From NCBI GenBank assembly GCA_025354795.1, contig JANXMF010000124.1:1-37602 (forward strand): a DNA stretch of 37,602 bases, read 5' to 3'. The position numbers were made by a program, and so were the translations under genes. The DNA is from Pseudobdellovibrionaceae bacterium (GTDB taxonomy: Bacteria; Bdellovibrionota; Bdellovibrionia; Bdellovibrionales; UBA1609). A model generated the notes under the pieces. That model was given only the letters and a program-made list of their open reading frames with translations. It made no database searches and was not told the origin of the DNA. Each line of letters starts with the position of its first letter. Positions within the stretch are counted from its first letter, which is position 1. Shown here one piece after another: positions 1,183-37,602 of this stretch.

Positions 1183-1211
1183 TTCTAGTTCGATAGTCTG
1201 CACAACTTCCC

Positions 1212-1240
1212 ATTCGCGGTCCCAAGGGGGGCCTGCGAAT
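1212..1240. terminator. Hairpin between convergent genes, possible bidirectional terminator
   Basis: The stem pairs ATTCGC (1212-1217) with GCGAAT (1235-1240) and is extended inward by GG(T)CCC against GGGGCC. It sits in the 69-base gap between two convergent stop codons, where a shared terminator is expected. No T-run follows on either strand, so it is not a textbook intrinsic terminator. Confidence 0.4.
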
Positions 1241-1251
1241 CTGAGGGCTCA

Positions 1252-2079: not shown

Positions 2080-2089
2080 GTCCCTCTCC

Positions 2090-5000: not shown

Positions 5001-5350
5001 GTCACTTTCAGATCGGTGTTTTTGTCATGCTCCATCTGCAAGTAGTAAAGCACATTGGATTTTTGCGAGAGCAAGTCGCCCAGCTGCATGTAAAGGTTGG
5101 CCAAAAACGGCGCGCTTTGATTTTGCGTAATTTGAATGCGCAGCAATTTAATTGACTGCTCCGCGCGTTTTAACATGACCGTTAGCTTTTCTTGAAACTT
5201 GGGATCATTGGTAGAGCCAACGTTCTCGTCGAGGGAATCCAATTCTTCATCGACCGCGGATTTAGGCGCTGGCTTAGCGTTGGCCGCGTGACTGGCCCGC
5301 CCACCGCTGCACAGAACAAGGAGGGCCAATGGAACGGCTAAAGATCGCAT
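2090..5350 (-). CDS. Large periplasmic TPR protein, GltD/AgmU-like by context
   Basis: 1086 residues from the ATG at 5350, preceded by GAAGAAAAA and overlapping the previous gene by 13 bases, which suggests translational coupling. Residues 1-25 form a signal peptide (LAVPLALLVLCSGG, cleavage near SHAANA). The remainder is almost entirely helical tetratricopeptide-like repeats, e.g. around residues 140-260 (LLGQYFYDQQDYESALKHL), 450-500 (LADVYFNQGNYLESASYYL) and 550-600 (LAKTYYEQGFYDHALEDLY), with further repeats near the C-terminus. Size and repeat content match the long periplasmic TPR scaffold GltD (AgmU) of the Myxococcus gliding machine, and the neighbours (second TPR protein, barrels, AglRQS-like motor) agree. 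Assignment to GltD rather than another TPR scaffold is inference. An earlier in-frame start would place 19 extra residues before the signal peptide and was rejected. Confidence 0.75.
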   Translation of the reverse strand: MRSLAVPLALLVLCSGGRASHAANAKPAPKSAVDEELDSLDENVGSTNDPKFQEKLTVMLKRAEQSIKLLRIQITQNQSAPFLANLYMQLGDLLSQKSNVLYYLQMEHDKNTDLKVTETKKFSPVVATEQEAIGIYQQLVKEFPTFDKLDKVMYRLAVAQKAIDETAGFVDTSEKLIAQFPDTKEAIQARLLLGQYFYDQQDYESALKHLNAVKDSPHPFERNAARYRIGLIEILQEKHISALAHFEQVATDAELKEDDNPMAIDLKTKTAKNNIKREALIDSVRAYTQVYPKGGDPVAFYSRIAPTEVLFQETIEKLAYRYIFLKKYNFAIKLLRTLSERTADAQKIMNIYHEVLQMIPIKDRIDLPVQEIQFVLEKYNYWFTHYTLTPELKLKSFQFFETQVRELGTHSHDLAKTEHDPKTRKDRFERAGRYYLLYLGFFHKDTRSVKIATNLADVYFNQGNYLESASYYLRVFSGEFGPPPQKEILIQNAILALQKPSDYGFYEQLRSKGLLVKAIRAYQAFKPKKKNDPDLVFTLAKTYYEQGFYDHALEDLYQFMKRYPEGREVPSAVELILNYFNTRSDFKSIVDWSDKMLALKPRNAELRTRLQSVRSKALLKRLDEQVKTQKGYDQFAQGKSYLQTALSAGDAKLRSAAFEQALGRSRAEKDIETFLKTAFVMAKAETNPQKRADLLNSMADETLAITRFNMTENIWRKILEDGKVPGPARTQAFEKMTKLSVMMHDLPQVTAMMASSYASTLTPDTRKAIKQQLTGVLESAISMPAKSLQSLLAQAQSDEEWLELFKAQTKMPENLRRDLLAKVAARCHKGQGSALCKWSTWPQSAGHIAQFVAGTRTAPTTIASVEPVAGKMNAVLEELKFSSGSGEPQLDILIALGSGDVYQGFATYLNRTADANKQIAAILKSKANESMNSAKSSRAQCQKVIATANLISPTNQACSSGRLPTLSDALRWRKPLPLASTNADPKGSDILEQQKALFLNHKDWKLYFDVSELYLNKHMWNHAAATATFATSTFPQNQEEFDAILGCALMNMGLMSEAQFHLAKASELNGHKEECLRQIRAQARAN

Positions 5351-6684
5351 TTTTTCTTCACCACGCCCTGGTAAAGCGCGCGCTCGTCGCGCCAGAAGTC
5401 TCCCCACTGCAGCCAGTTCAGGCGGAAATTTTTATCTTCAACGTTTTCGACCAATTGTAGCGCTTCGATTGGTGGCTCGGCAAAAACCCGGTCGGGATTA
5501 AAGCGTTCGCGGGCCACATCGAATTTTAAAAACTTGAGGCTCTCGCCCAGAATCACCAGGTGCTTGGCCAAAGCGGCGAGGGCGCGGTCTTCATAATACT
5601 GGCGACCGCGGGTAAGCATGGTAGTTTCGGATTGATAAACGTAAGTGGCCAGCGCGCGCACTTTTTCCGGTAAACCGCCGATTTTTTTGGACTCCGTCTG
5701 CAACTGAGCAATGGTTTGCGTGTATTGCCGATACTCCTGGGCTTCGGGATGTTCCAGATTGATCAGCTGTGGATAGTTGGAAAGCGGTTCGCCCATCTTG
5801 ATGCCGCTGATGGTGGTCGCGAACTCTTTGTCAAAGCTGCGAATCAATTGATCCGTCGCCCCCACCGAGCAGTACTCGCGGTAAATTAGCCCGCGCAGAA
5901 CATATTTTTCAAGCTGAATGGCGGAGCCAGTGGATTTGGACTCAAGATTATAAAGAACCCCAAGCGCCTCAGGAAAGCGCTTTAATTGGTAAAGATTCCA
6001 CGCCGCTTCGATCCAATCCGAGGGCATAATAGGATTTAGCTTTAGTAGAAATGTTTGATAAATTTCCAGCGACTTCTCGTATTGGCCGAGCTCATATTGA
6101 ATGCGTGCCAAGGTGCGGGCCTCTTTATGTGCCAGGCTCATCGACTCCGCACCACTGGTTTGCGCCAGGGCCTTATTCAGCCATTGAATCGCATCTAGGG
6201 GTTGGCCGTTGGCATAGGCTTCGGTGGCACGAAAAAATAAATACTTGGGCAGACTGTCTTTATCGATCTTGGAAAAATAATACTCCGCCCATTTTTCCAT
6301 TTTCTTATTGTGATTGATGATGCCTTTGTAAAGCGTGTAGTTCTGCGAGAAATCATCGTGTCCCGAAGGATCCAGGTCGCCGGGAATAAAATCCGCGCGA
6401 GTGGAGTAGGGATAACCCAGATCCACGAATTTGATGATTGCTGCGTAGGCTAGTTCCTTGCTTGGCAGGTCCGAAAAGAAATTGAGCATATCGCGCGCGG
6501 TGGCGATCGCGCCAAAATACATTTCACGACTTGCGAGTTCCGGCAGCAAGCGGTTCCAGTCCTCGGGCTTGGTCGCCATTTGCGGAATCTGGCCCAACCA
6601 TTTGGTATCGGTCGGGGAGGCGGCTTGAACCGGGAGGCTAAAGCAAAAGCTCAATCCGACAGCAACCGCAGATTTAAAAGGCAT
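5338..6684 (-). CDS. Exported TPR protein, GltE/GltC-like by context
   Basis: 448 residues from the ATG at 6684; the upstream TTG would only add residues in front of the signal peptide MPFKSAVAVGLSFCFSLPVQA. The mature protein is helical with TPR-type pairs such as LARIQYELGQYEKSLEIYQ (about residues 190-215) and AAWNLYQLKRFPEALGVLY (about 230-250). The first ATG overlaps the stop of the upstream barrel gene by 11 bases and its own end overlaps the next TPR gene by 13 bases, so all three are probably translated together. In Myxococcus, gliding loci contain more than one exported TPR protein (GltC, GltD/AgmU, GltE/AglT). This is the shorter partner here. The exact orthologue cannot be decided by eye. 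Confidence 0.72.
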   Translation of the reverse strand: MPFKSAVAVGLSFCFSLPVQAASPTDTKWLGQIPQMATKPEDWNRLLPELASREMYFGAIATARDMLNFFSDLPSKELAYAAIIKFVDLGYPYSTRADFIPGDLDPSGHDDFSQNYTLYKGIINHNKKMEKWAEYYFSKIDKDSLPKYLFFRATEAYANGQPLDAIQWLNKALAQTSGAESMSLAHKEARTLARIQYELGQYEKSLEIYQTFLLKLNPIMPSDWIEAAWNLYQLKRFPEALGVLYNLESKSTGSAIQLEKYVLRGLIYREYCSVGATDQLIRSFDKEFATTISGIKMGEPLSNYPQLINLEHPEAQEYRQYTQTIAQLQTESKKIGGLPEKVRALATYVYQSETTMLTRGRQYYEDRALAALAKHLVILGESLKFLKFDVARERFNPDRVFAEPPIEALQLVENVEDKNFRLNWLQWGDFWRDERALYQGVVKKKCDL

Positions 6685-7345
6685 ACGCCGTGCCCAAGCC
6701 AAACACTAAGTTGTTGTCAATATTACTGGGCGCGTACACGTCGCGGATTTGAAGCACCCACGAAAAATCGTCATTTACAAAGGTTTCAAAGCGAATGCCA
6801 AGGTTTACTCCCACTGTACCGCGCACATTGCTGACGGCATAGACGGGGCCACCAATCAAACTGCTGCGAAAATAACGGATGTGTTGTTTGAAAAACACGA
6901 ATTTTCCATAGGCCATGACATATTGGATGCTCGAGGAAGCGATAAACGTCAGACGCTCGATGGATTTTGGATTCTTGGTGAATTTTTCGGCCAGCTGGGA
7001 GCGCAAATCTTTGTCGACGCTATAAATGTAGTTTACGTCTAGAACTTGCCAGGTATAGGTCTTGTCAAAATAGTGGTTGTAGCCCAGGTCGATGCCGAAG
7101 CCGTTGTAGTAGGGATCCACCGGATACACACAAAGACCAAAGTCAATTTGCCGCGATTTCGGATTGCGGTAAGTTTCCACCGCTTCAATATTGACCCCAT
7201 CCATGGGTTGGACCCCGGCCGGCAAATTGATTTGCGGTCCGGTGGGCGTTTTCGGCGCGGCCTTGGTCGGGGCAGCTGCGGCTTCGACGGTTGAACTATT
7301 TAGAGTGAGAATTAGAATGAGATTTGCGAAAAAAATAAAGTGCAT
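6674..7345 (-). CDS. Outer-membrane beta-barrel domain protein
   Basis: 223 residues from the ATG at 7345. A TTG 36 bases upstream also opens the frame but would put 12 residues before the signal peptide HFIFFANLILILTLNSSTVEA, so the ATG is preferred. After a short Ala/Pro/Lys linker the protein is made of beta strands rich in Tyr, Phe and Gly (DFGLCVYPVDPYYNGFGIDL, GVNLGIRFETFVNDDFSW) and ends in GLGTAYAF with C-terminal Phe. This resembles the myxobacterial-type outer membrane beta-barrel domain family. It is the first gene of the minus-strand operon, facing the motor operon across a 247-base intergenic region. A gliding outer-membrane component is the likely role. Confidence 0.72.
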   Translation of the reverse strand: MHFIFFANLILILTLNSSTVEAAAAPTKAAPKTPTGPQINLPAGVQPMDGVNIEAVETYRNPKSRQIDFGLCVYPVDPYYNGFGIDLGYNHYFDKTYTWQVLDVNYIYSVDKDLRSQLAEKFTKNPKSIERLTFIASSSIQYVMAYGKFVFFKQHIRYFRSSLIGGPVYAVSNVRGTVGVNLGIRFETFVNDDFSWVLQIRDVYAPSNIDNNLVFGLGTAYAF

Positions 7346-7384
7346 TATTAGGACGTTAAGAGAGGCTCTCGGCGGTGTCAAATT

Positions 7385-7403
7385 CTAGACCAGTTACTAG
7401 ACC
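7385..7403. promoter_or_regulatory. Direct CTAGACC repeats in divergent promoter region
   Basis: The 247-base region between the divergent envelope and motor operons holds two CTAGACC copies at 7385-7391 and 7397-7403, one helical turn (12 bases) apart, and two GGACGTTAA copies at 7351-7359 and 7409-7417. These are candidate operator sites for shared control. I could not assign convincing -35/-10 boxes. The rest of the region is AT-rich toward 7593. Confidence 0.3.
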
Positions 7404-7592
7404 CCTTCGGACGTTAAAGGACGCTGCCCTTGAAGACATTATGGACAGTGCCTAAGGGTTCGCCATTTTAGAAGTCTGAATTTCATTTTGAGATTTAAAA
7501 AAGTAAGTAATTTCATGTAGTTAAATATTTATCCCGCGGAGCCGTTTTTGCATTTCAAATGACCAAGGGTTTTAAATTGTCGGGGGAAAAAT

Positions 7593-7991
7593 ATGTTTAG
7601 CAAAATCGTCGCAATCTGGTGCGGACTCTGTGCACTCACACTCACACCAGTGATGTGTGAAGCCGGCCCAGCAAGAACTAAAAAAGCGTCTCATGGTGAT
7701 AAAAAGTACGTGAAGCCAACCACTGGAGCAAAGGCGACCGCGACTTCTTCCGCTGGCAAAAAGCTGGATTCATCCGAAGCGGCTGTGAAACGCGCACTTG
7801 CAGGGGTAGGTGGTGGCGGTGGGACTGTTGGTCCAGGCGGCGCCAAAAATGATCCGAATCATGCGGTGGAAATTCGCGGGCAGTCCCGCACGCTGTCCAT
7901 GATGCTGGTCTTGAAAAATGGCAAAGAGAACATTAACTTCATCAAAATTCGCAAAGACTATAACCCTGAAATCGCCGGGACCCAGTACTGA
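7593..7991 (+). CDS. Small exported protein heading the gliding motor operon
   Basis: 132 residues; the ATG follows a GGGGGAAAAAT ribosome site. The N-terminus (MFSKIVAIWCGLCALTLTPV) is a signal peptide ending near MCEA. The preceding PVMC does not fit a lipobox well because Met stands directly before Cys, so a lipoprotein is unlikely. The middle is Lys/Ala/Thr-rich and disordered, with a glycine run (GVGGGGGTVGPGG) near residues 71-83. The last 40 residues (VEIRGQSRTLSMMLVLKNGK to the end) look folded and may be the functional part. It leads the AglRQS-like genes by 83 bases. I do not recognise the family; a periplasmic accessory of the motor is a guess from position. Confidence 0.6.
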   Translation: MFSKIVAIWCGLCALTLTPVMCEAGPARTKKASHGDKKYVKPTTGAKATATSSAGKKLDSSEAAVKRALAGVGGGGGTVGPGGAKNDPNHAVEIRGQSRTLSMMLVLKNGKENINFIKIRKDYNPEIAGTQY

Positions 7992-8074
7992 CGGACAGTC
8001 TAGATCCACTTCCTGTCCTGTAGACAATTCGCTCGTCTCTCCCAGATACTGAAGTCTCGGGGAGGCAGAACTCA

Positions 8075-8758
8075 ATGCTAAAATTTATTGTCGAAAATTT
8101 CACCCACGTGTTGCCGATTTTGATTTCGGGAGCAATCGCCTTGTTGATTATTATCGAGCGCTTCGTGGCCCTGACGTATTCCTATCCGATGAGTAACTAC
8201 GATGCCTTTTTTGATCGCCTGCGTTTGTTGATTATGAAAGATTCCATTCAAGATGCGATCGCACTTTGCGATGTGTTTCGCTCTAAGCCGGTGGCGCGCA
8301 TTGCACGCGTGGGCCTGATGCGCGCGCACCAGCCGACCAGCCTGATCGAGAGCGGCTTGCAAATCGCGGTGTCGGAATCCAACGAAAAGATTCAGGCGCG
8401 CACCGCGTTTCTAGCGACCATTGCCAACGTAGCTACACTCTTTGGTCTATTCGGAACTATTATTGGTCTGGTGCAATCTTTCGAAGCCGTGGGAAATGCG
8501 ACCGCGCAAGCGCGCTCAGCGCTGCTGGCGCAAGGTATCTCGACCGCGATGAACGCCACCATGCTCGGGCTGGGGGTTGCGATCCCGGCCATGATTGCCT
8601 ATGCAATTTTGATGAATAAGAGCAACAAAATCAGCGGCCAGATTGACCAATCCGCGATTCGCATCATGGACCTTTTGCAGCAGCGCTATTTTGCCACTGA
8701 GGCCGCGCCCCACGACAACAATGAATTTCCGCAAGCTGGTTTAAGGGTGCAAAGGTGA
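8075..8758 (+). CDS. aglR: MotA/TolQ/ExbB proton channel protein, AglR-like
   Basis: 227 residues, ATG preceded by GGGGAGG. It has the three membrane segments of the MotA/TolQ/ExbB family: one near residues 10-32 (VLPILISGAIALLIIIERFV), then a long cytoplasmic loop, then the paired helices near 108-132 (ANVATLFGLFGTIIGLVQSF) and 152-176 (ATMLGLGVAIPAMIAYAILM). These are the conserved G-L-x-G-T-x-x-G-L and G-x-A-x-P motifs. With the two TolR-type proteins that follow it would form an inner-membrane proton-driven stator. The gene order TolQ-TolR-TolR followed by an AgmX-domain protein matches AglR-AglQ-AglS of the gliding machinery better than ExbBD (iron uptake) or TolQR (envelope constriction). 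The stop overlaps the GTG of the next gene. Confidence 0.85.
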   Translation: MLKFIVENFTHVLPILISGAIALLIIIERFVALTYSYPMSNYDAFFDRLRLLIMKDSIQDAIALCDVFRSKPVARIARVGLMRAHQPTSLIESGLQIAVSESNEKIQARTAFLATIANVATLFGLFGTIIGLVQSFEAVGNATAQARSALLAQGISTAMNATMLGLGVAIPAMIAYAILMNKSNKISGQIDQSAIRIMDLLQQRYFATEAAPHDNNEFPQAGLRVQR

Positions 8759-9222
8759 GCGGACCCGTCGGGGACGGCGCTTCCAATCAAGATGTTGATT
8801 TAAATCTCGCCCCCATCATCGATTGTTTCACGGTTTTGATTACCTACTTGCTGGTGACGGCTTCGTTCCTCACGCTCTCGTCCGTCGACGTCAGTGTGTC
8901 GGCCACAGGTACAGGCGCGCCGCCACCGGAAAGCACCGGGCCGCCGCCGATGACAATGGCCATTGAGCTCAAAGCTGGAGGCAACCTCGAAATTCAAATT
9001 CGTGGCGGCGCTGAAAATAAAAAACTTTCTTATAACGTGCCCGGCGAAACCGGCGGGTGGAATATGGCTCTCCTCACTTCGCGTCTGCAAGAGATCCAGG
9101 GCAAATGGCCTGCGATCACTGAGGTGAGCGTAACCGCCGAACCGGCCATCATCTATAAGGACATTGTTTCGATTCTGCATGAAATTCAAAACGTAATGCC
9201 CAAAGTTTATATTTCCGGGTGA
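8755..9222 (+). CDS. aglQ: ExbD/TolR-family motor protein, AglQ-like
   Basis: 155 residues. The GTG start at 8755 overlaps the preceding stop. A short cytoplasmic N-terminus leads to one membrane helix, about residues 19-41 (APIIDCFTVLITYLLVTASF), carrying the family's proton-binding aspartate at D23. The rest is a periplasmic ExbD-type domain with a Pro-rich start (GAPPPESTGPPP) that may contact peptidoglycan or a partner. The conserved Asp implies an active channel. The gene sits between the AglR-like channel and a second TolR-like protein, the arrangement found in gliding bacteria where AglQ and AglS are both needed. Which of the two TolR genes is the true AglQ rests on order alone. Confidence 0.8.
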   Translation: MSGPVGDGASNQDVDLNLAPIIDCFTVLITYLLVTASFLTLSSVDVSVSATGTGAPPPESTGPPPMTMAIELKAGGNLEIQIRGGAENKKLSYNVPGETGGWNMALLTSRLQEIQGKWPAITEVSVTAEPAIIYKDIVSILHEIQNVMPKVYISG

Positions 9223-9235
9223 TTGGCAGGGTGCC

Positions 9236-9721
9236 TTGAGAACGTCATTTATCAAAAAGAAGAAAAATGCCTCTACCGACGTGGCTCTGCAAATTACCTC
9301 GATGGCCGATATTTTTATGATTCTCCTGGTGTTCCTATTGAAGAACTACGCCACATCGGTGACCAATATTGCTCCCACCGCGCACCTGTCGCTGCCGGAA
9401 GTGAACAAGAGTAAAGGCGTGATCAAAGAGACTCTGAAAGTGGAGATTGCTAACGATTTAGTGATGATCGATCAAAAACCGGCGCTCGCGCTCCATGCCT
9501 TTCAGTTTGATCCGAGTGAAGACGGTCCCGGAGGCGTCTCGCCCACCGTAGCCCGAGTGTTGAACGAACAACGCAAATTGCGACCTGAGCCCAATATGGA
9601 CTCAAGCCTTTTGGTCATGGCCGATCAGCAAACGCCTTACTCCACCATCAAACGGGTGGTGGCTTCAGCGGCCAGTGCCGGCTTTGTCGATCTGCAATTG
9701 GTGGTGGTGCAGGGTGAATAG
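9236..9721 (+). CDS. aglS: Second ExbD/TolR-family motor protein, AglS-like
   Basis: 161 residues from a TTG start 13 bases after the previous stop; AGGGTG nearby is a weak ribosome site. A lysine-rich N-terminus (KKKK, residues 7-10) precedes the single membrane helix (about residues 17-38), with the proton-binding aspartate at D25 in the context SMADIFMILLVFLL. The periplasmic part ends in a typical TolR/ExbD fold (LLVMADQQTPYSTIKRVVAS). Having two TolR paralogues, both with the aspartate, after one TolQ gene is the hallmark of the AglRQS stator rather than of ExbBD. The next gene begins four bases downstream. Confidence 0.8.
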   Translation: MRTSFIKKKKNASTDVALQITSMADIFMILLVFLLKNYATSVTNIAPTAHLSLPEVNKSKGVIKETLKVEIANDLVMIDQKPALALHAFQFDPSEDGPGGVSPTVARVLNEQRKLRPEPNMDSSLLVMADQQTPYSTIKRVVASAASAGFVDLQLVVVQGE

Positions 9722-9724
9722 TCC

Positions 9725-11479
9725 ATGAGAGCACGCCCAGACGAGTATTTGATTCACACTAAGATCGGGAAAATCTCGCGCAAAACCGTATGGCAGTGCG
9801 ACCACAGAATTGATCTTGATCTGCCGCGCGGATGGAAAATCGAAAGGGTCAAAGATCAGCTGCGCATTTGGGATCATTCGTCACCCACACAGGCATTGAC
9901 GATGGCCGACATTGCCAGCGGTGAATCCAAGTTCTTCAATCTACCCGCCGCCCGCGGTCCGGGTCGCCGCCGTCCCATCGCACTCAAACTCAGTAAACTG
10001 CGCCCCCCGCGCCCCGTATATGTCAGCAAGCCGTCGCAGCCCGCGCTACGCACCACCGGGCCTCGCCAACTTTGCGCCTTTTATGGCCAGCGCTACTTTT
10101 TGATTCGCTATCGCCCGGTGGGCTCGAGCTTTACCATTTCACTCGGTGGCAGTGGAGTTTTTAGCTACAAGAAAAGCATAGCCGGTTACACTATCACACC
10201 GAAAAAAACCAGTATTCGGGTCAATGTGGGCGGCAAGAAGACGACGGTTCCCCTCGGCAGCAGTCTGGAATTGTCGGAAGTCGATTTTTTTCGCAGCACA
10301 GTTTTAGAGGGTATTCATTGGTGGCGTTTTCGCATGGTGCCCACACCGGATGGGCAGCCGCCGCTAGAAACCGACGAGACCGACGAGGATTTGCGCGAGG
10401 TCGTGCGTCTTCAGTACAGCACAGTGGCGTTTCTCGGTTTGGTGGGAGTCATTCTTTTCGCGGTGTTCCTCATGGGAAAACTCTATCCACCGGCGCCGAA
10501 AATGATGCGCGCGGAAGTGGCCCTTAAACAACCGAAAGTATTTCCGGCATTTGAGGAAAAAAAGCCGCCTCCTCCGCCGCCGAAAGTGGTGGAAGAACCG
10601 CCGCCGCCTCCCCCAAAACCAGTCGAACCGGTGAAAGAGCCGGAAAAGCCCAAGAAGGTAGTAAAGGCACCGCCAAAGGTGAAACATCCGCCCAGGAAAA
10701 TTGCCAAGGCCTCGCTCAAACCCGAACCGAAGGTTGAACCTAAGGCCGAACCGCCACCGACGCCTCAGCCACCCAAGGATCCAGGGCCCACGCCCGAGCA
10801 ATTGGCCGCGGCCGAAAAGGCGCGCGAGCAAGCGGCGGAGCAAAAACAAATGCTCAACTCGTTAAATTTTCTGTCATCCAACAAGAACCGCCCGACCATT
10901 GATCCTGCCAATTACGAAAACCAAGAGGGTAAGTTTGCCGAGACCGCCATGGTCGGCGGCATGACCAGCAAGTCCAACGTTTTGGATAAAATGGCAAAAG
11001 GTGCGCCGGGCTCAGGCAGTATCAGCACAAAATCGAGCCGCGGCATCGCCTCAAAATTATCCTTTGGCAAAAACAAAGGCCTCAACGATGTCCAGGGCAA
11101 AGTTTCGTTAGGAGAGTTGGTGAGCAAAAACGGCGATCCGGGCAGCGCTTTGGGCGGGAAAAGTCTCGAGCTTTCGGGTCCGGGAGAATTGTCTGAGAGT
11201 CAGATTGAAAAAGCCTTGGCCAAATTCCTGGCGAAATTTCAGTACTGTTATGAGAAGGCGCTACTGAGCGACTCCAGTCTCAGCGGCAATGTTATGGTGC
11301 AGTGGTCGGTTACAACCGGCGGAAAAGTCGAGGATTCGCGCGTGCTCAAATCGCAGATGAACAATGTGGATTTACAAAAATGCGTTTTAAAAGTTCTCAG
11401 CGGCGTACCATTTCCCAAGCCTAAGGGCGGCGTGGTTATCGTGAAAAAGACTTTCGCGTTCTCAAGCGCCTCGATGTAA
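9725..11479 (+). CDS. TonB-like envelope-spanning protein with AgmX/PglI C-terminal domain
   Basis: 584 residues. A cytoplasmic N-terminal region (about 1-230) of beta-rich character has no motif I can name with confidence; an FHA-like fold is possible but the phosphothreonine-binding residues are not evident. One membrane helix lies at about 233-253 (TVAFLGLVGVILFAVFLMG). Then comes a long Pro/Lys/Glu-rich stretch (about 265-365: PPPPPKVVEEPPPPPPKP and similar), as in TonB, able to span the periplasm. The C-terminus (about 490-584) matches the AgmX/PglI domain: CYEKAL, G-N-V-M-V-Q-W, a second cysteine in LQKCVLK, and PFPKPKGG before the final beta strand. The two cysteines may form a disulfide. 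In Myxococcus, GltG and GltJ (AgmX) have this layout and link the AglRQS motor to the outer membrane. It is co-transcribed with the motor genes. Confidence 0.82.
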   Translation: MRARPDEYLIHTKIGKISRKTVWQCDHRIDLDLPRGWKIERVKDQLRIWDHSSPTQALTMADIASGESKFFNLPAARGPGRRRPIALKLSKLRPPRPVYVSKPSQPALRTTGPRQLCAFYGQRYFLIRYRPVGSSFTISLGGSGVFSYKKSIAGYTITPKKTSIRVNVGGKKTTVPLGSSLELSEVDFFRSTVLEGIHWWRFRMVPTPDGQPPLETDETDEDLREVVRLQYSTVAFLGLVGVILFAVFLMGKLYPPAPKMMRAEVALKQPKVFPAFEEKKPPPPPPKVVEEPPPPPPKPVEPVKEPEKPKKVVKAPPKVKHPPRKIAKASLKPEPKVEPKAEPPPTPQPPKDPGPTPEQLAAAEKAREQAAEQKQMLNSLNFLSSNKNRPTIDPANYENQEGKFAETAMVGGMTSKSNVLDKMAKGAPGSGSISTKSSRGIASKLSFGKNKGLNDVQGKVSLGELVSKNGDPGSALGGKSLELSGPGELSESQIEKALAKFLAKFQYCYEKALLSDSSLSGNVMVQWSVTTGGKVEDSRVLKSQMNNVDLQKCVLKVLSGVPFPKPKGGVVIVKKTFAFSSASM

Positions 11480-11483
11480 CCGC

Positions 11484-13184
11484 ATGGCTAATGGAAACCG
11501 CTTCTTTGAGCGTTTTTCCTATCTAATAATTCTGTTGTTACAGTTGCCCGGTTTATTTATGCTGGCGCATTTTCCGCAAAGTCCGGACGGGTCCGAGATG
11601 CTCACGACGGCGCTCAATGGCGGCGTGATGCATCCCTCGGGTCTGCCACTGCAGGCTTGGCTTGATCGTCTCTTTGTATTGAATGGTGAAACTCCCGCCC
11701 TCGGGCTTAGTTTTCTGTCCTGGCTTGCGGGTGGTGCGACCCAGTTCGTGCTCTTCGCGCTTCTGCGGCGCCTGGGCACGCGGCCGGGCGCGGCGCTTAT
11801 GGCGGTGATCGCTTATGCATTTTCAGTGCCGGTCGCCACGCTCGCGCTGCAGCCGGAAAAGTATGCGCTGATGGCATTTCTACAAATAGGTTTTATTTAT
11901 ATGACGACAGGGCCGACGTTGCGGCGCGCGGACTACGTGTGGATGCCCTTGGTATTTGCGCTCGGTCTCGCCCAGCATACGGCTTTGGTGATCATGACTC
12001 CGTTCTTGCTGCTGCCCGCGCTAGAATGCTGGCGGCGCGGAGAACGGCACAAGGCAAGCACTTATGCGTTGGCGACAATAGCACTCACTCTGCTTTTTAC
12101 GGCCGCATTTTATTTGAGCTTGCTGTGGCTGCGGGCCGTTCCTCCGTGGCCCGATTGGGGTCGACTGGAATCCCTGGGGCAGTTGTGGGATCACGTCTCG
12201 CGCCGGGAATTCGGGGGTGGCTTGATCAACGCCCAGGATACGCCGTCCGATATTTATTTGTCGGGGCTGGGCCTGCTCTGGAGCGTCCTCAAGCAGTGGA
12301 CGGTTCTTATGCCTTTGCTTCCGTTCGGTCTCTATTTGTTATTCAAGTCCAACCGGACGTTCGCTAACACTCTGTCCTTGAGTCTGTGCGCGGGACTGGG
12401 GGTCTTAGTTTGCATTGAGCTGCCCGCCAGCGATTTTTCCACGGCAATGGGGTACGGCGAACGCTATCCGTGTTTGTTGCTACCACTTTTAACGGTTGCC
12501 CTGGGAGTAGGGATTGACCAAATGCGCGGATGGGCACTCTCTAGTCTGGTGCTGATGGCTCTTGGTTACACGGTGTCGCGCGCACTGCCGTTGATGCGTC
12601 AAGTGGATAGTCGTTTGATTGAAGTTTACCGTAACGAAGTCGCGCGCGAATTCAGGCCTGAGGCTATGTTTGTGAGCACCAGTGAACTGGATTTATTTTA
12701 TGGGATTCCGTGCGCCGGCAAAGTTTGCTTTCCGCTGAAAAACCTATTCGGCTCCGCCTGGTACCGAGAGAGAACAGCTCCCGCGCTCGACCCGCGCGTG
12801 CGCGAAATCTTGTCCGAATTTCAACGCCTGCCATGGAGTTATGCTGAGTTTTTGCGCCAGGCCCATAAGCGCGGTTATGTTTTACTTAGCACTAGTGGCG
12901 ATTTGTTTATAACTGAGGTCGAGTTTCAAGGGCACATCACGCAACGCGGACTGGTGTGGCTGGTCACGCGGGAGCCGGTTTCACTATATGACAGCGAAAT
13001 TGAGGTGAGTGCGCGTGAATTGTGTCAAAGCCTTGAGCGCGCGCCGGATTCCGTGGCGCAAAATGGAAATTATTTTTTGCACGAACTTGTGCACAAAATA
13101 AATTTTGTTTTCGTCAGCGCCGGCGACGCGCGCGGAGCATCCGTGGCGTGCCCAGCTTTGCTCCGAATCGCGCCGTGGCTATAG
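11484..13184 (+). CDS. DUF2723 multi-spanning membrane protein, GT117-type glycosyltransferase
   Basis: 566 residues, starting four bases after the AgmX-domain gene. The N-terminal half has about ten hydrophobic helices. The luminal-loop signature SPDGSEMLTTALNGGVMHPSG (residues about 32-52), the helix following LAQHTA (about 165) and RREFGGG (about 235) fit the DUF2723 family, now classed as protein O-mannosyltransferase-like GT117. The last ~180 residues are soluble, presumably periplasmic, with a Cys pair in IPCAGKVC. Family members are thought to transfer a sugar from a lipid-linked donor to an exported acceptor. Position at the end of the motor operon suggests the acceptor could be a gliding surface protein, but that is inference. 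Substrate and sugar are unknown. Confidence 0.72.
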   Translation: MANGNRFFERFSYLIILLLQLPGLFMLAHFPQSPDGSEMLTTALNGGVMHPSGLPLQAWLDRLFVLNGETPALGLSFLSWLAGGATQFVLFALLRRLGTRPGAALMAVIAYAFSVPVATLALQPEKYALMAFLQIGFIYMTTGPTLRRADYVWMPLVFALGLAQHTALVIMTPFLLLPALECWRRGERHKASTYALATIALTLLFTAAFYLSLLWLRAVPPWPDWGRLESLGQLWDHVSRREFGGGLINAQDTPSDIYLSGLGLLWSVLKQWTVLMPLLPFGLYLLFKSNRTFANTLSLSLCAGLGVLVCIELPASDFSTAMGYGERYPCLLLPLLTVALGVGIDQMRGWALSSLVLMALGYTVSRALPLMRQVDSRLIEVYRNEVAREFRPEAMFVSTSELDLFYGIPCAGKVCFPLKNLFGSAWYRERTAPALDPRVREILSEFQRLPWSYAEFLRQAHKRGYVLLSTSGDLFITEVEFQGHITQRGLVWLVTREPVSLYDSEIEVSARELCQSLERAPDSVAQNGNYFLHELVHKINFVFVSAGDARGASVACPALLRIAPWL

Positions 13185-13227: not shown

Positions 13228-13333
13228 GGCATATGCCAAACGCCTGTGGGCTTACCCATTTAGCCTATGCCGGAACCCATATGCGTTTGTGCCGTTTGCC
13301 ATTTCCCGAGTTCTTGCCGTATGCCGTATGCCC
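13228..13333. repeat. Cluster of short GGCATATG/GCCGTATGCC-like repeats
   Basis: This gap contains GGCATATGCCAAACG (from 13229), TGCCGTTTGCCAT (13290-13302) and a tandem GCCGTATGCC-type pair (about 13315-13330). Related copies, one in inverted orientation, recur at 15215-15240 after the aspartic protease gene. The repeats are imperfect and partly palindromic. They look like a small dispersed intergenic repeat family, not like insertion-sequence ends. Confidence 0.4.
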
Positions 13334-13343
13334 GAGTTCCCCT

Positions 13344-13790
13344 TCAAAAGTCCTCAGTACTGACCCCGGCTGGCATCTGAGCCGGAAGGTATGCTCGGCC
13401 CTTGACCATTTTCGGCAAATCCCAAAACTCGAAGACCACCCGGCCGGCATCGACTTTACGGTAGTGGATGCGGCCCGCCCGCGGCGGGTGGTTTTGCTCG
13501 TAATCATGTAAATCGTTTTTATATACACCAAGCAGAGTGTGAACCTTTTCATCCCTTCGGCCAGTCCAGGTTACCGCGAACACCCGGTTGTCGCGCATGG
13601 ATGCAAATTGACGAACGCGCGCGTGCTCGGTGCCGCTTTCGAGGCGGCGAAAAGGTCTAGACATTTTTTCGGTGACCTGGCCGCCCGAGTTTTCGGGTTC
13701 CGGAGGCAGGACTTCGCCGAGCGCGGCGCGGGCGGAAAGTGGTGTGGCCAAGGCCAAAAACAGGAAATATTTGTAGTAGCGCAAATACAT
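13344..13790 (-). CDS. DUF2844-family exported protein
   Basis: 148 residues. The signal peptide MYLRYYKYFLFLALATPLSARA is followed directly by ALGE, the usual beginning of mature DUF2844 proteins. The middle contains NRVFAVTWTGRRDEKVHTLL and the end contains KGRAYLP, both positions conserved in that family (FAVxWxGP near the middle, GRAYLP near the C-terminus). DUF2844 proteins are short exported proteins of unknown function. The gene is divergent from the aspartic protease lipoprotein, with 134 bases between the two starts, so the two could share control. Family recall is from memory of the pattern. Confidence 0.65.
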   Translation of the reverse strand: MYLRYYKYFLFLALATPLSARAALGEVLPPEPENSGGQVTEKMSRPFRRLESGTEHARVRQFASMRDNRVFAVTWTGRRDEKVHTLLGVYKNDLHDYEQNHPPRAGRIHYRKVDAGRVVFEFWDLPKMVKGRAYLPAQMPAGVSTEDF

Positions 13791-13924
13791 ATTCTCTCAT
13801 GTTACGCGCAATCGCGTGGCAGTTCCAAGCCGATTCCGCGACTTTAGCGACCAAAGGCCGACCGGACCTATCGGTCACCGCGAATTTCAATTACGCTTAA
13901 TATTTGTCGGGATGAGGGTGCCGA

Positions 13925-15190
13925 GTGCGAATTGCGATTTTTTTGCTTGTGGGAATAATGCTCAGCCCCGCTCTGTTGTCCTGTCACAATTCCTCTTCAG
14001 TGGACACTAAGAGTTCTTGCAGTCCCCAACCCGGCACCCTTCCTTCGAGTTCGACAGCCGTACCGGGCGCGCCCATCGCGGTGGCGCTGATAGGATGTAC
14101 CACGATTGACTACAGCATGCCCGCGAACATTGGCGGTCAAGCGGGAATCAATATGATTGTGGATTCGGGATCAACCGTCCTGGCGGTCGCGGGTTCCAAC
14201 TGTGTCAATTGCTCAGGTGTCAGTCCGGTTTACGTGGCCACGCATGGCAAGAATTTGTGTAAGAGTTTAATCTCAACTTATGGTGACGGGACCGGTTGGA
14301 TTGCGCCGGTTTTTCAAGACACTGTTAAAGTGGGCACGCTGCCTTCCATAGTCATGAACTTCGGTTCGATGTCGGAGCAGCTGCAATCGCCGAACTCGGG
14401 CACTTGGTTTTTTAACAGTTTTGATTGCAACATGGGAGCGAGCGCGGTCAATCAGACCCAGGGTATTTTTGGGCTCGCGTTTCCAGGCTTAAGCAGCGCG
14501 CCCGCGGTCGGATATCTTGATGCACTTCAGGCGCAAGCCAGTGTTCCCGATGTTTATGCCACCCAACTGTGCATGAGCGGCGGGCAAATTTGGTTTGGCG
14601 GCTATGACACTAATTTTGCTTCAACCGCCCCTGTTTACACGCCAATTAGTCCACCGCTGGGACAGGAAGATACATTTTTCTGGATAAAAATTAATGATCT
14701 GAAAGTCGGTAACACCTCTATTGGCAGGCCTGCGAACGCTTACACCATGCCTTTGGTGGACTCGGGCACTAGCATCGCGCTTCTTCCGCCGACGGTTTTC
14801 ACCGCGTTGCAAACGGCGATCGGCTCCAATGCGGCATTTCGCGCACTGGTCGGAGCGCCCAACGCCAACTCTTGGTTCGCCAACGGCGGATGTTTTACAA
14901 CCTCACAAACTCAAGCGCAGCTCGATGCCGCGTTGCCGACGCTGACGATGGTGCTTCCGTCGACTACAATCGGCCAAACCATCTCCGTGGTTATGCCCGC
15001 GACGATGTCTTATCTTGATTACCACAAAGATGGTAGCAACGTGATCCACTACTGCGCGGGTTTTGCGCCCAATTCTTCGTCTTCTGATCCGACCATTATT
15101 GGTGGGACTTTTCTGCGTTCGTTGATTACGATTTTTGACCGGACTGGGGGACGGGTAGGGTTTGCGACCGGGACTGGGTGCAGTTCTTAG
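13925..15190 (+). CDS. Pepsin-family (A1) aspartic protease, lipoprotein
   Basis: 421 residues. The GTG start at 13925 follows GATGAGGG by seven bases. The N-terminus ends in a lipobox LLSC (C20), so the protein is probably membrane-anchored and exported. Both catalytic motifs of two-domain pepsin-like proteases are present: IVDSGST with D80 and PLVDSGTS with D279, about 199 residues apart (183 in pepsin). Between them are a flap with Tyr (TYGDGTG, Y119; followed by DTVKVG) and IFGLAFPGL, matching the pepsin GxxGLG strand. The C-terminus IIGGTFLRSLITIFDRTGGR then VGFA matches the final pepsin motif (xxGDxFLRxxxxxFDxxxxRVGFA). Several Cys pairs (SNCVNCSG) suggest disulfides. A1 peptidases are common in eukaryotes and rare in bacteria (shewasin of Shewanella is the known type). 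Likely role: degradation of external or prey proteins in an acidic or periplasmic setting (inference). Confidence 0.9.
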   Translation: MRIAIFLLVGIMLSPALLSCHNSSSVDTKSSCSPQPGTLPSSSTAVPGAPIAVALIGCTTIDYSMPANIGGQAGINMIVDSGSTVLAVAGSNCVNCSGVSPVYVATHGKNLCKSLISTYGDGTGWIAPVFQDTVKVGTLPSIVMNFGSMSEQLQSPNSGTWFFNSFDCNMGASAVNQTQGIFGLAFPGLSSAPAVGYLDALQAQASVPDVYATQLCMSGGQIWFGGYDTNFASTAPVYTPISPPLGQEDTFFWIKINDLKVGNTSIGRPANAYTMPLVDSGTSIALLPPTVFTALQTAIGSNAAFRALVGAPNANSWFANGGCFTTSQTQAQLDAALPTLTMVLPSTTIGQTISVVMPATMSYLDYHKDGSNVIHYCAGFAPNSSSSDPTIIGGTFLRSLITIFDRTGGRVGFATGTGCSS

Positions 15191-15220
15191 GGCGGAACTT
15201 GGGAGAGGGCAGACCGGCAT

Positions 15221-15233
15221 ATGGCAAACGGCA
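15221..15233. repeat. Inverted copy of the 13290-13302 repeat
   Basis: ATGGCAAACGGCA at 15221-15233 is the exact reverse complement of TGCCGTTTGCCAT at 13290-13302. The two flank the DUF2844 and aspartic protease genes. The wider context GGCATATGGCAAACGGCAG also resembles GGCATATGCCAAACGCC at 13229 in direct orientation. Confidence 0.5.
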
Positions 15234-16092: not shown

Positions 16093-17467
16093 ATAATTTG
16101 AGTGCCTTCACCCGCTGCGCGCGGCGATCGACAATGGGCTTTGGGTAATCGCGCCCTAAACGAAACCCGACCGGCAAGGTCTTGGCGGCGTGGGGGGCGT
16201 GGATCGCGCGGTCAGATAGCGAGTGCAATTCCGGTAAGTAGCGGCGTAAGAAATCACCGTTGCGGTCAAAACGCTCGGACTGGACGGTAGGATTGAAGGT
16301 GCGAAAATAGGGTTGCGCATCACAGCCGGTGGAGGCGCACCACTGCCACCCGCCATTGTTCGCCGCTAAATCAAAATCGATTAGTTTGGAGGCGAAGTAA
16401 CTTTCGCCTAAGCGCCAATCCACCAGGAGGTCCTTAACCAAAAAACTGGCGGTAACCATGCGCAAGCGATTGTGCATCCATCCAGTTTGGTTCAATTGGC
16501 GCATGGCCGCGTCGATCAGTGGATAGCCAGTGGCTCCCGCGCACCAGACTTTGAAATGGCGCGCGGAGCCCGGCCACTGGAGCTGGCGATATTTGGCCTG
16601 AAACGCCATCGTCTCCACTTCGGGAAAACGATCGAGGATCATATGGTAAAACTCGCGCCAAATCAGTTCGGTCAGCCAAGTTTGAGCGCCTGGGTTTTGC
16701 TCCTCCACGCAGGCTCGGACGCAAGTGCGGATCGAGATCGTGCCAAAACGCAAATGTACCGAGAGCTTTGATGTGCCGTCCACGGCTGGGAAGTCACGGG
16801 CCTCCGCGTAGCGCCCGATCTTGCGAGTAAATGTTTTTAGTAGATCTTTGGCTTTAGCTAGCGGCGGGAGGTCAAGTGAAACCGCCTTCGCAGTAAATTT
16901 AAATAGTTTATTCAAGTCTGGCCGCTGTTCGCTCACGCAAGCCGACGTGAGTCGGGCAAGCCAGGCCTTTTTATAGGGAGTGAAAACCCGGTAGGGTGTG
17001 CCGTCCGCTTTCAAGATCTCATCGCCGGCAAAGATCACATGGTCCTTGAGCCGGTGAAATTCCACACCCGCCTTCGCCAATTTGCGGGCGACCGCCACGT
17101 CTCGCTGCTTGGCCGCGGGCTCACACTCCCAGTTGCAAAACACGGCTTCGATTTGATGCTGCTTGAGCACCTTGAGGAGTTCCGCTTCGGGCTTACCCGT
17201 AAGGTGTAGCAGGGCCGACCCGTGCCGTCGTAACTGCGCATCGAGTGCCGCGAGCGCAGCCAGCACAAATTCGTTCTGCACGGGTGCGAAGTCATCGGGT
17301 GCGGAAATAAAAGCGACCAGCACCTGATCGGATGTGGCGCAGGCGCGGGCCAAAGCGTGATGATCGATTAGGCGCAAATCGCGCCGTAGCCAACACAGGC
17401 TGGTTCGATAGTTACGCTCCGTTAAAATGGTGTGCCCCTGTCGACGTTCAAGAGTTCGTCCGCGCAC
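16082..17467 (-). CDS. phrB: Class I deoxyribodipyrimidine photolyase
   Basis: 461 residues. The N-terminal antenna domain starts with SLCWLRRDLRLIDHHALARA. The C-terminal FAD domain shows TELIWREFYHMIL, then TGYPLIDAAMRQL with TGWMHNRLRM, then LAANNGGWQW (about residue 370) with DAQPYFRTFNP. These are the FAD- and lesion-binding motifs of CPD photolyases. The enzyme uses blue light and FADH- to split cyclobutane pyrimidine dimers. The GTG at 17467 is the only usable start upstream of the domain but lacks a clear ribosome site; it lies 46 bases inside the preceding gene, so translation may be coupled. Length fits the family (450-480). A cryptochrome is less likely because there is no C-terminal extension. 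Confidence 0.92.
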   Translation of the reverse strand: MRGRTLERRQGHTILTERNYRTSLCWLRRDLRLIDHHALARACATSDQVLVAFISAPDDFAPVQNEFVLAALAALDAQLRRHGSALLHLTGKPEAELLKVLKQHQIEAVFCNWECEPAAKQRDVAVARKLAKAGVEFHRLKDHVIFAGDEILKADGTPYRVFTPYKKAWLARLTSACVSEQRPDLNKLFKFTAKAVSLDLPPLAKAKDLLKTFTRKIGRYAEARDFPAVDGTSKLSVHLRFGTISIRTCVRACVEEQNPGAQTWLTELIWREFYHMILDRFPEVETMAFQAKYRQLQWPGSARHFKVWCAGATGYPLIDAAMRQLNQTGWMHNRLRMVTASFLVKDLLVDWRLGESYFASKLIDFDLAANNGGWQWCASTGCDAQPYFRTFNPTVQSERFDRNGDFLRRYLPELHSLSDRAIHAPHAAKTLPVGFRLGRDYPKPIVDRRAQRVKALKLFRT

Positions 17468-18606
17468 GGTTCAAAGCGCGCCGTGTGCTGGCTTAGGTTC
17501 GATTGCAGGCGATAGCCTTGAACATAAGTTCGGTAAAAGCTGATCAACGGTTGCGGCCGAATCTGCAAATAATGCTCGTTGATCGCGTTTAGTATGTGAT
17601 CCAGTTCAGTCAATGATAGCCCCATCGCCAAAAATTTCGCAGTCGGGATCAGCAAGATTTCTTCGGCTTCATGAAACGTAAGTTCTAATTTCTCAAAAAC
17701 ATACCGTTCCATGCCGCTCAAGACCATACCGCGTAACCACAGCGGAGTCATCGCACTTTCCGGCGGCTGCACGGCTTCCACGACAGAAAGCTTAAGCCCG
17801 ACGCCGCGTTCCGCCGACAAAAGCGGCAGTCCCGTCCGAGTAACGACGCGGGTCGCGATATCGCGCATAAACAGACGCGGTTTACGTTCGGGATGGCTTC
17901 CGTCCCACCTCATATGCTCGGCAATGGCGGCGTAAGGGGCGACCTGGTGAGGAGACTGAAAAATGAATTTCATCAGTTGTTGTTGCTTAAGCGTGAGCGG
18001 CACCAAATGTCCGTGATAAACCAAACCTCGTCCGCCGCGGTCAAAGCCCAAGAGAATGCTACCGATGTCTTCTTGGACTTCCTGATAAAGCGCAAGTTCA
18101 CCGTTGACGTCGACCACCACCGAGCGGCGAATGGCTTTGACCGTCATTTCATTGACCCGGGCTATTTCCAGCCGCACCTGATCTGGTTCGAAGTCGGAAC
18201 CCATTTGTACGGCCAGCTCGTTAACGGTCAGTGGATCTTTCGCCGAGAACAACAGAGCCAGCAAGCCGAACTGCGTTGCGTTGACTTCCAGTTGTCCGCC
18301 TTTGGCAAAACCCAGATTGTAAGTTTCGCTCAATTGAAAATCGTCGAGGGAGGCCTGCACATAGATAAGCGGAATTTGTGCCGCAATCCCGAGCTTGGCG
18401 TCTTGCAGCGCCAGTTTGCGGCGTGCCACAAGGGCCTCCAGTAGGACTGTGTACTGCAAGTAGCTCAGAGCGAGAGTGGAGCGCCGGTCACGCACCTGAA
18501 GGGAGTGCGAACGGTCCAAGCTCAAACCCTCAAATTGGGCCACCACCTCAGCCTGTGAAGCGGGGAAAATTGGGACACAAAAGAGAGTGAACAGAAATAA
18601 TTGCAT
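17422..18606 (-). CDS. Protein with signal-like N-terminus and two winged-helix-like domains
   Basis: 394 residues, ATG preceded by AAAAGGA. Residues 1-19 (MQLFLFTLFCVPIFPASQA) resemble a signal peptide, though without N-terminal positive charge. Residues about 195-273 look like an OmpR/PhoB-type winged helix: LVPLTLKQQQLMKFIF, a recognition-like helix around KPRLFMRDIATRVV, and the wing motif SAERGVGLKL (compare R-G-x-G-Y-x-L). Residues about 105-172 (VNATQFGLLALLFSAKDPLT and following) look like a degenerate second copy. The C-terminal ~120 residues are helical and unassigned. A cytoplasmic transcription regulator would not carry a signal peptide, so either the N-terminus is only a hydrophobic helix or the domains act in the envelope. 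It overlaps the photolyase start by 46 bases. No family name can be given. Confidence 0.55.
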   Translation of the reverse strand: MQLFLFTLFCVPIFPASQAEVVAQFEGLSLDRSHSLQVRDRRSTLALSYLQYTVLLEALVARRKLALQDAKLGIAAQIPLIYVQASLDDFQLSETYNLGFAKGGQLEVNATQFGLLALLFSAKDPLTVNELAVQMGSDFEPDQVRLEIARVNEMTVKAIRRSVVVDVNGELALYQEVQEDIGSILLGFDRGGRGLVYHGHLVPLTLKQQQLMKFIFQSPHQVAPYAAIAEHMRWDGSHPERKPRLFMRDIATRVVTRTGLPLLSAERGVGLKLSVVEAVQPPESAMTPLWLRGMVLSGMERYVFEKLELTFHEAEEILLIPTAKFLAMGLSLTELDHILNAINEHYLQIRPQPLISFYRTYVQGYRLQSNLSQHTARFEPCADELLNVDRGTPF

Positions 18607-20437: not shown

Positions 20438-20752
20438 GTGGACTTCCGCATTCGCTATACCCTTTTAGGCTTAATTCTTTTTCACGGCTTCAACGTTGTC
20501 GCGATCCAAGTGCCAAGCTGTGAGAAACCAGCGATCAAAGTGGAAGCAGAAGACGAGTTTACCGCTCTTTGCGTCAGCATCTGTGACCGTACGTTTGAAA
20601 ATCATGATTCGACAAAAACTACATTTTTTCGCAAACAATGTGCGCAGTCCAGTGCGGACCAAAAAAGGCGCGAGCACTTTCGCAGCCTTCTTCTCCCTCT
20701 ACCTGTGCAGTATCGACGCTCAAGGAGAGTAATTCAGCCTGAGGGGGCTTAG
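20438..20752 (+). CDS. Doubtful small exported protein
   Basis: 104 residues from a GTG at 20438 with AGAGAAG upstream. The first 22 residues (MDFRIRYTLLGLILFHGFNV) look like a signal peptide, followed by PSCEKPAIKVEAEDEFTALC and a second Cys in VSICD. The last 40 residues become Arg-rich and unlike the rest, and overlap the 3' end of the transferase gene by 33 bases. Just before the change is a run of six T (about 20624-20629); loss of one T would move the frame to one ending at 20732 with a more protein-like tail (STFAAFFSLYLCSIDAQGE). Either the C-terminus is genuine and odd, or the gene is frameshifted by mutation or a base error. Confidence 0.35.
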   Translation: MDFRIRYTLLGLILFHGFNVVAIQVPSCEKPAIKVEAEDEFTALCVSICDRTFENHDSTKTTFFRKQCAQSSADQKRREHFRSLLLPLPVQYRRSRRVIQPEGA

Positions 20753-21460
20753 GGCCGCGATCCCCTGACGCACTCGAATCTCCGCCCGCTCCCCACCCGC
20801 ATCCGCCTTTAGCGCGAGGGCCCCTTGATACTCACCGCCAAACTCAAAAAGCTGAAATTGCCAGGCGGTGGGGTCTTGGTAGAGAAACCGCGGCGCAAAG
20901 TGAACCTGCACATCGGGCGCGAGTAAAAAAGAAATATTCCGCGGCTGCGCCGTGAAGCCAAGGCCCATGGCCTTGAGCAAGCTCTCCTTGAGGGTCCAGT
21001 ACTTAAAGAATTTTGTGCACTGAGCTTGAGGAGTAGTGTCTTCAATATCGTCAATTTCACGGGGAGTAAAATAATCGCCGGCGACTTCACGCCAGGAAAC
21101 CTGGCGCTTCAGCGATTCAATGTCGACTCCGATCGCGCGCTCTTCGCTCAAAGCACACACAATCAGGCCTTGAGTGTGGGAAATATTGAAATGCATCCCA
21201 GCGAAACCGACCAGTGATGGTTTGCCACAGGCGTTAAAGGTAAACTCCCATTGCCGGGGCGAACGCGAGACTAAAGTGCGGGTCAAAAGTTGGCGCAGCA
21301 GCCAGCGCCCACCAATAAATTGAAGACGGGTCTCAACGTGGCCTATGCCTTCAGCCCTTTGCAATTCTAGGTGGCTCAGAGTACCGGCAATTTCCGCCGG
21401 CGTCAGGGCCCGAACCTCGTCCAGTTTTAATGTCCACATATCGACCTGGAGAGCACCCAT
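20720..21460 (-). CDS. Sfp-type 4'-phosphopantetheinyl transferase
   Basis: 246 residues from the ATG at 21460; a second ATG at 21439 is also possible. The signature residues of the Sfp/Gsp family are present: GKPSL, then HFNISHTQGL, then AIGVDIESL (Mg-binding Asp and Glu), and KYWTLKESLLKAMGLG (catalytic Lys-Glu motif). The enzyme transfers the phosphopantetheine arm from CoA to a serine of carrier proteins. The Sfp length (about 230-250) rather than AcpS length (about 125) implies it serves secondary-metabolite synthases. The obvious local clients are the free ACP (27482) and the two ACP domains of the PKS (28433). It is divergent from the CheX gene, with 157 bases between starts. Confidence 0.92.
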   Translation of the reverse strand: MGALQVDMWTLKLDEVRALTPAEIAGTLSHLELQRAEGIGHVETRLQFIGGRWLLRQLLTRTLVSRSPRQWEFTFNACGKPSLVGFAGMHFNISHTQGLIVCALSEERAIGVDIESLKRQVSWREVAGDYFTPREIDDIEDTTPQAQCTKFFKYWTLKESLLKAMGLGFTAQPRNISFLLAPDVQVHFAPRFLYQDPTAWQFQLFEFGGEYQGALALKADAGGERAEIRVRQGIAALSPLRLNYSP

Positions 21461-21617
21461 GAGCTTTCTATCGGCCAAAGTCAGAGGTGAACCAAGACTA
21501 AAAGCTAGAAATATAACCGATTCGCCTGCGACCTTTGTTTGCTTTTGGGACTGATCTCATTGAGAGACAAACACAAATGCTTTACCATCGTGGTAGGTGT
21601 GCAAGGAAGCTTAGAAT

Positions 21618-28417: not shown

Positions 28418-28432
28418 CGGGGGACTTTGGAC

Positions 28433-37400: not shown

Positions 37401-37602
37401 CCCCACAATCCATGGGTATGGATACGCGCGCATTGGCTTCGGATGACGTGGGCAATAAGGAACTGCTCGAAGGTTTCCAAAAGATCTTTGGCGGGATTCC
37501 AAAGGAGCTGCTCAACAGCACCGAACTACAAGATATGTTTGTTCCCACATTGCGCTCAGATATGCAAACCGCTCAGTCCTTGCAATATGAGGTCGAGGCG
37601 CC
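28433..37602 (+). CDS. Bimodular type I polyketide synthase, 3' end outside window
   Basis: 3056 residues are visible and the frame is still open at the last base. GGGGGA stands eight bases before the ATG. Domains in order: KS1 (about 1-430; C175 in QSACSTS, ECHGTGT, NFGHLD); AT1 (531-840; GHSMGE with S627, specificity motif WASH 727-730); DH (about 890-1190; H935 in [12 protein letters not shown]1110 in LLDACFQ); KR (structural half about 1200-1450, catalytic from 1456: TGGLSGLG, S1587, Y1600); ACP1 (S1779 in GMDSLL); KS2 (about 1850-2280; C2025 in DTACSSS); AT2 (S2474 in GHSIGE, HAFH 2574-2577); ACP2 (S2804); and a thioesterase from about 2887 (S2959 in GYSFGA). There is no ER domain. All catalytic residues are intact. 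The KR lacks the A-type Trp and has LHD at the B-type position, predicting a D-hydroxyl that the DH would convert to a trans double bond. Module 2 leaves a beta-keto group. The protein starts at the KS with no loading module or docking helix. Confidence 0.95.

Follow-up and report, generated by a model that had tools for sequence, protein, structure and literature searches.

A predicted lipoprotein of peptidase family A1 with memapsin-like features encoded in a Pseudobdellovibrionaceae genome

The gene at positions 13925..15190 (+ strand) of the window, by which the whole stretch of 37,602 nucleotides, here a complete contig, is meant, encodes a two-lobed aspartic peptidase of family A1 that carries a lipoprotein signal and groups with other bacterial lipoproteins. 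With a probability of about 0.78, this protein is a lipid-anchored, catalytically competent and monomeric A1 endopeptidase from a memapsin-like bacterial clade, acquired horizontally, with proteolysis at the cell surface as its likeliest task. Family A1 is mostly eukaryotic, and its peptidases were regarded as eukaryotic until 2009. The lipoproteins related to the window protein form a small family, mainly from Myxococcota and sporadic in its distribution, apparently not described before, as a search of open-licence papers for A1 lipoproteins in myxobacteria or in this clade returned none.

Catalytic domain and structure model

The open reading frame is complete, running from a GTG start to a TAG stop over 421 aa, and is preceded by a GAGG at 13914..13917, 7 bases 5' of the GTG and on the same strand (as are all features of the gene given below), which can be read as a likely ribosome-binding site. 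The best profile match is PF00026, the A1 family, and not a non-A1 family, with an E-value of 1.3e-24 and a score of 87.7 bits where the cut-off is 19.9 bits, covering residues 68-415 of the protein and positions 7-314 of the 315 in the profile, in agreement with the full two-lobe peptidase proposed by the first-pass annotation. A chance open reading frame is ruled out by this profile match (E 1e-24), and a retropepsin-like A2 enzyme of a single lobe by the presence of two full lobes.

The catalytic domain comprises residues 48-419 (14066..15181), the modelled residues 48-420 lying on BACE1. Regarding the active site, D80 of the first lobe (DSGST, in IVDSGS; 14162..14164) is aligned with pepsin Asp32 and D279 of the second lobe (DSGTS, in LVDSGT; 14759..14761) with pepsin Asp215, while the flap contains Tyr119 (STYGDG; 14279..14281), aligned with pepsin Tyr75, and Trp125 (14297..14299), which is invariant in the clade and common to BACE1 (KWEGE). 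Both psi-loop glycines are intact (IFG183 and IIG393), and the C-terminal FLR..FDR..RVGFA strand is present; D80, Y119, D279 and this strand are all found where they had been placed before. The catalytic residues are kept across a clade whose members are 24-36% identical to the window protein, as expected of working enzymes.

An AlphaFold2 model was computed on an alignment of 19 sequences, composed of the window protein and the loci of its relatives, reaching a pLDDT of 81.9 and a pTM of 0.83, compared to a pLDDT of only 33 in a single-sequence run. When this model was searched with Foldseek, each of the top 50 matches was a BACE1 or BACE2 structure, with 2.6e-26 as the best E-value, and VIA-align superposed its residues 48-420 on BACE1, pairing 338 residues at 2.4 A with a Z of 39.8. 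Because the model superposes end to end on an active enzyme, D80 and D279 very likely adopt the normal active-site geometry, and the prediction speaks against two aspartates that do not face each other. From the sequence, D80 and D279 would activate a water molecule between the lobes, under the flap with Tyr119 and Trp125, and so cleave peptides, probably at acidic pH. Thr282 occupies the position of pepsin Thr218 in the alignment, differing from the Ala found there in six of the seven published bacterial A1 homologues (PMC2761423), and it argues weakly for an acid optimum, since shewasins bearing that Ala are acid enzymes nevertheless (PMC4814920).

Lipoprotein signal and cysteine pairs

At the N terminus, VRIAIFLLVGIMLSPALLSC fits a lipoprotein signal by a PROSITE-style lipobox pattern, with a positive R2, a hydrophobic stretch at residues 3-16 and the lipobox LLSC at residues 17-20; the lipoprotein nature already read from the LLSC box is upheld by one Arg, the hydrophobic stretch and the pattern match together. 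The signal peptide corresponds to residues 1-19 (VRIAIFLLVGIMLSPALLS; 13925..13981), followed by Cys20 (13982..13984), the predicted site of lipid attachment, and by a linker of residues 21-47 (13985..14065) that has low pLDDT in the model. As judged from this signal, the precursor would leave the cytoplasm through Sec and, after lipidation and cleavage by signal peptidase II at Cys20, would probably be sorted to the outer membrane, because the +2 residue is His and not Asp. The mature enzyme would thus be tethered through a flexible linker of ~27 residues. Inspection of the linker revealed neither a basic pepsinogen-like prosegment nor an RLPR-type (furin-type) site, and with no recognisable prosegment the enzyme is probably not a zymogen.

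Such a signal is present in all 12 clade members with a readable N terminus, compared to none of the 13 other bacterial A1 proteins found. It also sets the window protein apart from the bacterial A1 proteins published so far, as those of Shewanella, Colwellia, Marinomonas and Sinorhizobium were predicted without signal peptides (PMC2761423) and shewasin D is cytoplasmic (PMC4814920); what they have in common with the window protein is a bacterial host, two lobes and the lack of a pepsinogen-like prosegment.

The window protein has 11 Cys, including C20, the predicted lipid site, and family conservation backs four pairs (58/168, 93/96, 216/419 and 323/377), in line with the extra Cys pairs noticed by the first-pass annotation, so that up to four disulfides may stabilise the enzyme. 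Cys58 (14096..14098) and Cys168 (14426..14428) are proposed as partners because they are jointly present or jointly absent in 12 of 12 comparable clade sequences, as expected of a disulfide. Cys93 and Cys96 (14201..14212) form a pair, invariant in the clade, that lies near pepsin Cys45-Cys50. Cys216 (14570..14572), likewise invariant and aligned with BACE Cys216 (LQLC), would be joined to the invariant Cys419 (15179..15181), at the BACE Cys420 position, after the model of the Cys216-Cys420 pair of BACE. Finally, Cys323 (14891..14893), aligned with BACE Cys330, is the proposed partner of Cys377 (15053..15055), aligned with BACE Cys380.

A bacterial lipoprotein clade and its affinity to BACE

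Relatives were sought by scanning 84,980 species genomes with a DNA pattern of the second psi-loop and the C-terminal strand. Of the 27 loci that it matched, 13 proved to be real A1 genes. Four loci were clearly nearer to the window protein, at 33-34% identity and E-values down to 3e-46: a Myxococcota MAG contributed two of them, a Polyangiaceae MAG the third, and the fourth came from a MAG labelled 'proteobacterium' that belongs to the same phylum set as the Myxococcota relatives. Searches of the genomes of these relatives and of their groups added further members, a single genome having as many as four copies or fragments. Scans of genomic and viral contigs with the window protein as single query, as well as tblastn in plasmids and phages, gave no relative, and in viral contigs the alignment-derived patterns likewise revealed no relative and a less stringent form of the DNA pattern had chance matches only.

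In the tree, the window protein falls into a single clade together with ten full-length relatives, with support 100/97, or 100/98 without endothiapepsin. The window gene has a long branch, and by the AU test (p 0.28) it may lie either within the Myxococcota set or as its sister. Both catalytic Asp, Trp125, C93, C96, C216 and C419 are invariant or nearly so in the clade. A lipoprotein subclade of five loci carries DSGGP or DTGGP instead of DTGTS as its second motif and is devoid of the 323/377 Cys pair; owing to the DSGGP motif, activity may vary among clade members.

Other bacterial A1 types appeared in the same searches, so the first-pass statement that only a few bacterial enzymes of this family are described is now dated by Endozoicomonas, Duganella, signal-less Myxococcota and lipoprotein types. 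The signal-less Myxococcota proteins (four loci), on a long branch, are the nearest bacterial sister of the clade in trees (90/84, and 84/54 without endothiapepsin), differing from it by the absence of a lipoprotein signal. Endozoicomonas and a related Oceanospirillales strain possess A1 genes (five loci) whose products are 31-39% identical to human pepsin and have apparently ordinary signal peptides, representing a separate probable transfer. A further type (three loci), from Duganella and two proteobacterial MAGs, has no lipoprotein signal and a very long branch.

As seen by the family profile against all solved chains, BACE1 is the best match (E 2.2e-44); it scores 145 bits, compared to 88 bits for pepsin, 81 for cathepsin D and 60 for endothiapepsin. 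In the trees, which hold only three or four eukaryotic references, BACE1 falls on the side of the lipoprotein clade and the signal-less Myxococcota type with support 97/94, rising to 100/98 without endothiapepsin, and constraining BACE1, pepsin and cathepsin D into one group is rejected (AU p 0.001, tree without endothiapepsin). The pepsin, cathepsin D and endothiapepsin references were checked against solved chains, and BACE1 was taken from the family-profile alignment. With so few eukaryotic references, these trees speak of an affinity to BACE1 and not of a direction, and an A1 enzyme from an unsampled protist could be nearer than BACE1.

Features of the protein point the same way. The metazoan BACE1 and BACE2 (MEROPS A1), with the highest profile and structure scores among solved A1 enzymes, resemble the window protein in the flap Trp (W125), in the missing Trp39, where A87 stands (Ala or Gly occurring in place of Trp39), in having Cys where BACE has its residues 216/420 and 330/380, and in the predicted membrane tether. 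Meanwhile, identity to BACE1 is 24.5%; the tether of BACE is a C-terminal transmembrane helix, compared to a predicted N-terminal lipid here, where the protein stops two residues past C419; the furin-cut prosegment of BACE is not recognisable; and the Cys278-Cys443 pair is absent, there being no Cys at the 278 place and the protein ending at residue 421. Pepsin and cathepsin D are alike in fold and catalytic residues, at ~27-28% identity in the alignment, but differ in Trp39, prosegment and pepsin-type disulfides, besides their lower profile scores. By these comparisons of sequence, the lipoprotein clade is memapsin (BACE)-like rather than pepsin-like. The window protein is nevertheless classed as a memapsin-like A1 peptidase and not as a memapsin, because the 278-443 disulfide, the C-terminal anchor and the furin-type prosegment are missing.

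No bacterial sequence resembling BACE emerged from a 2013 survey (PMC3865767), and a marine group of bacterial A1 proteins had earlier been placed nearest to memapsins (PMC2761423). It is conceivable, though doubtful, that the memapsin branch is common to animals and to the lipoproteins of Myxococcota and their kin through an exchange in either direction, rather than being an animal invention; the bacterial side of the exchange would be a membrane-tethered protease that resembles BACE in its flap, its disulfide and the way in which it is tethered. The lipoprotein branch offers a bacterial outgroup for BACE as well as a genetic and biochemical handle on exported bacterial A1 enzymes, and the origin of two-lobe pepsins becomes testable if protists, as well as Myxococcota with their kin, are sampled more densely.

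Role, origin and genomic setting

By analogy with BACE, which is membrane-tethered, the enzyme would most likely cleave proteins on the cell surface or close to it, whether the bacterium's own or those of a prey or host. Many Myxococcota are predatory, and a more specific role may be considered in which the protease, held by its lipid anchor, degrades the proteins of prey cells where the two surfaces touch or inside the periplasm of the prey. The relatives live mainly in this predator-rich group, the host, probably Bdellovibrionales-like as judged from its gene content, has gliding-type genes, and a membrane tether would confine digestion to the site of contact. However, any A1 gene is found in only 6 of 379 Myxococcota genomes and in 10 of 318 genomes of one Myxococcota class, several of these being of the signal-less type, and 368 other genomes of the host phylum lack the gene, so that it does not belong to a core predation kit; neither are prey-digestion genes seen adjoining it. 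A predatory function is thus a tentative and rather unlikely reading, and the broader one of surface proteolysis is preferred.

The restriction of the gene to the host alone among 369 genomes of its phylum, as seen both by PF00026 and by the clade profile, makes its acquisition by horizontal transfer into this lineage probable. The lipoprotein relatives belong to a different phylum, which is a larger group. Most economically, the donor would be another bacterium and not directly a eukaryote. Acquisition from a eukaryote had been considered by the first-pass annotation, as an old event in view of the codon use. A recent one, from a eukaryotic prey, host or grazer, would fit a gene unique in its phylum from a mostly eukaryotic family, and it has parallels in the bacterial A1 genes of plant symbionts, judged probable transfers (PMC2761423), and in the Endozoicomonas genes close to pepsin. 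Against it, the closest relatives found are bacterial lipoproteins, the window protein scoring 289 bits with their profile compared to 72 bits with BACE1 by BLAST, and the lipoprotein signal throughout the clade indicates a long bacterial history. Moreover, GC (53.6%) and GC3 (58.1%) are inside the range of the neighbours, and codon use is inside that of 23 window genes, confirming the neighbour-like codon use noted at first. A recent eukaryotic donor is accordingly improbable.

The assembly itself has to be weighed in the same way, as the gene could be that of a Myxococcota contaminant. The host MAG (3.15 Mb, 94% complete) is 3.9% contaminated and has several odd-GC contigs; the gene is absent from all kin, and to the right of position 11479 the window has weak or no match in the relatives tried, the flanking genes in eight related genomes having one distant kin (11484-13184) or none (17422-18606). 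On the other hand, the left 11.5 kb (1-11479) of the same contig is syntenic with G006, a genome of the same family but another genus, at 34-69% identity, the synteny ending just short of the A1 region. The window GC of 53.1% equals that of the main bin. In tetranucleotide correlation, the middle (0.49) and right (0.52) parts of the window come just below the 0.55-0.70 of the bin's own large contigs. In addition, the Myxococcota relatives are too distant, at only 24-36% identity, for any known contaminant to fit closely. A binning or assembly artefact is for these reasons very unlikely, and horizontal acquisition by the host is retained.

Least probable of all is a non-catalytic homologue binding peptides or enzymes, like xylanase inhibitors or pregnancy-associated glycoproteins, for although PF14541 (TAXi_C) also matches with 45 bits and some clade members carry DSGGP, the PF00026 score is twice as high and the window protein retains both Asp, each followed by its small residues, as well as the flap Tyr, G183 and G393.

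Gliding-type genes, mentioned beforehand as gliding-machine genes of this genome, are indeed located at 5338-11479. They are part of a gliding-type cluster at 2090-11479, with TPR proteins, an outer membrane protein and TolQ/ExbD-like and GltG-like proteins, up to 69% identical to those of G006, whereas the large TPR protein of the cluster shares no more than 22-24% identity with the copies in its own genus. Next to the A1 gene, 134 bp away and divergent to it, lies a gene for a DUF2844 protein (13344-13790, - strand; PF11005, E 3e-17). Copies of TGCCGTTTGCCATATGCC bracket both genes, several at 13228-13332 and a single inverted one at 15216-15233, the left and right copies matching over 19 nt at 89%, 1.9 kb apart. 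The motif has four matches in the window against 0.05 expected and none in 20 other contigs of the host genome. These copies could be the ends of a mobile cassette, and no target duplication is seen at them.

Rfam and tRNA scans of the ORF-poor window end were empty. At 28418-37600, a single open frame, 3061 aa long or more, runs off the contig end and corresponds to a two-module type I PKS with KS, AT, DH, KR and ACP domains and part of a thioesterase, making up a biosynthetic cluster with the genes of a PPTase (20720-21478), an acyl-AMP ligase (23958-25292), an Fe-ADH, an SDR and a NIPSNAP protein.
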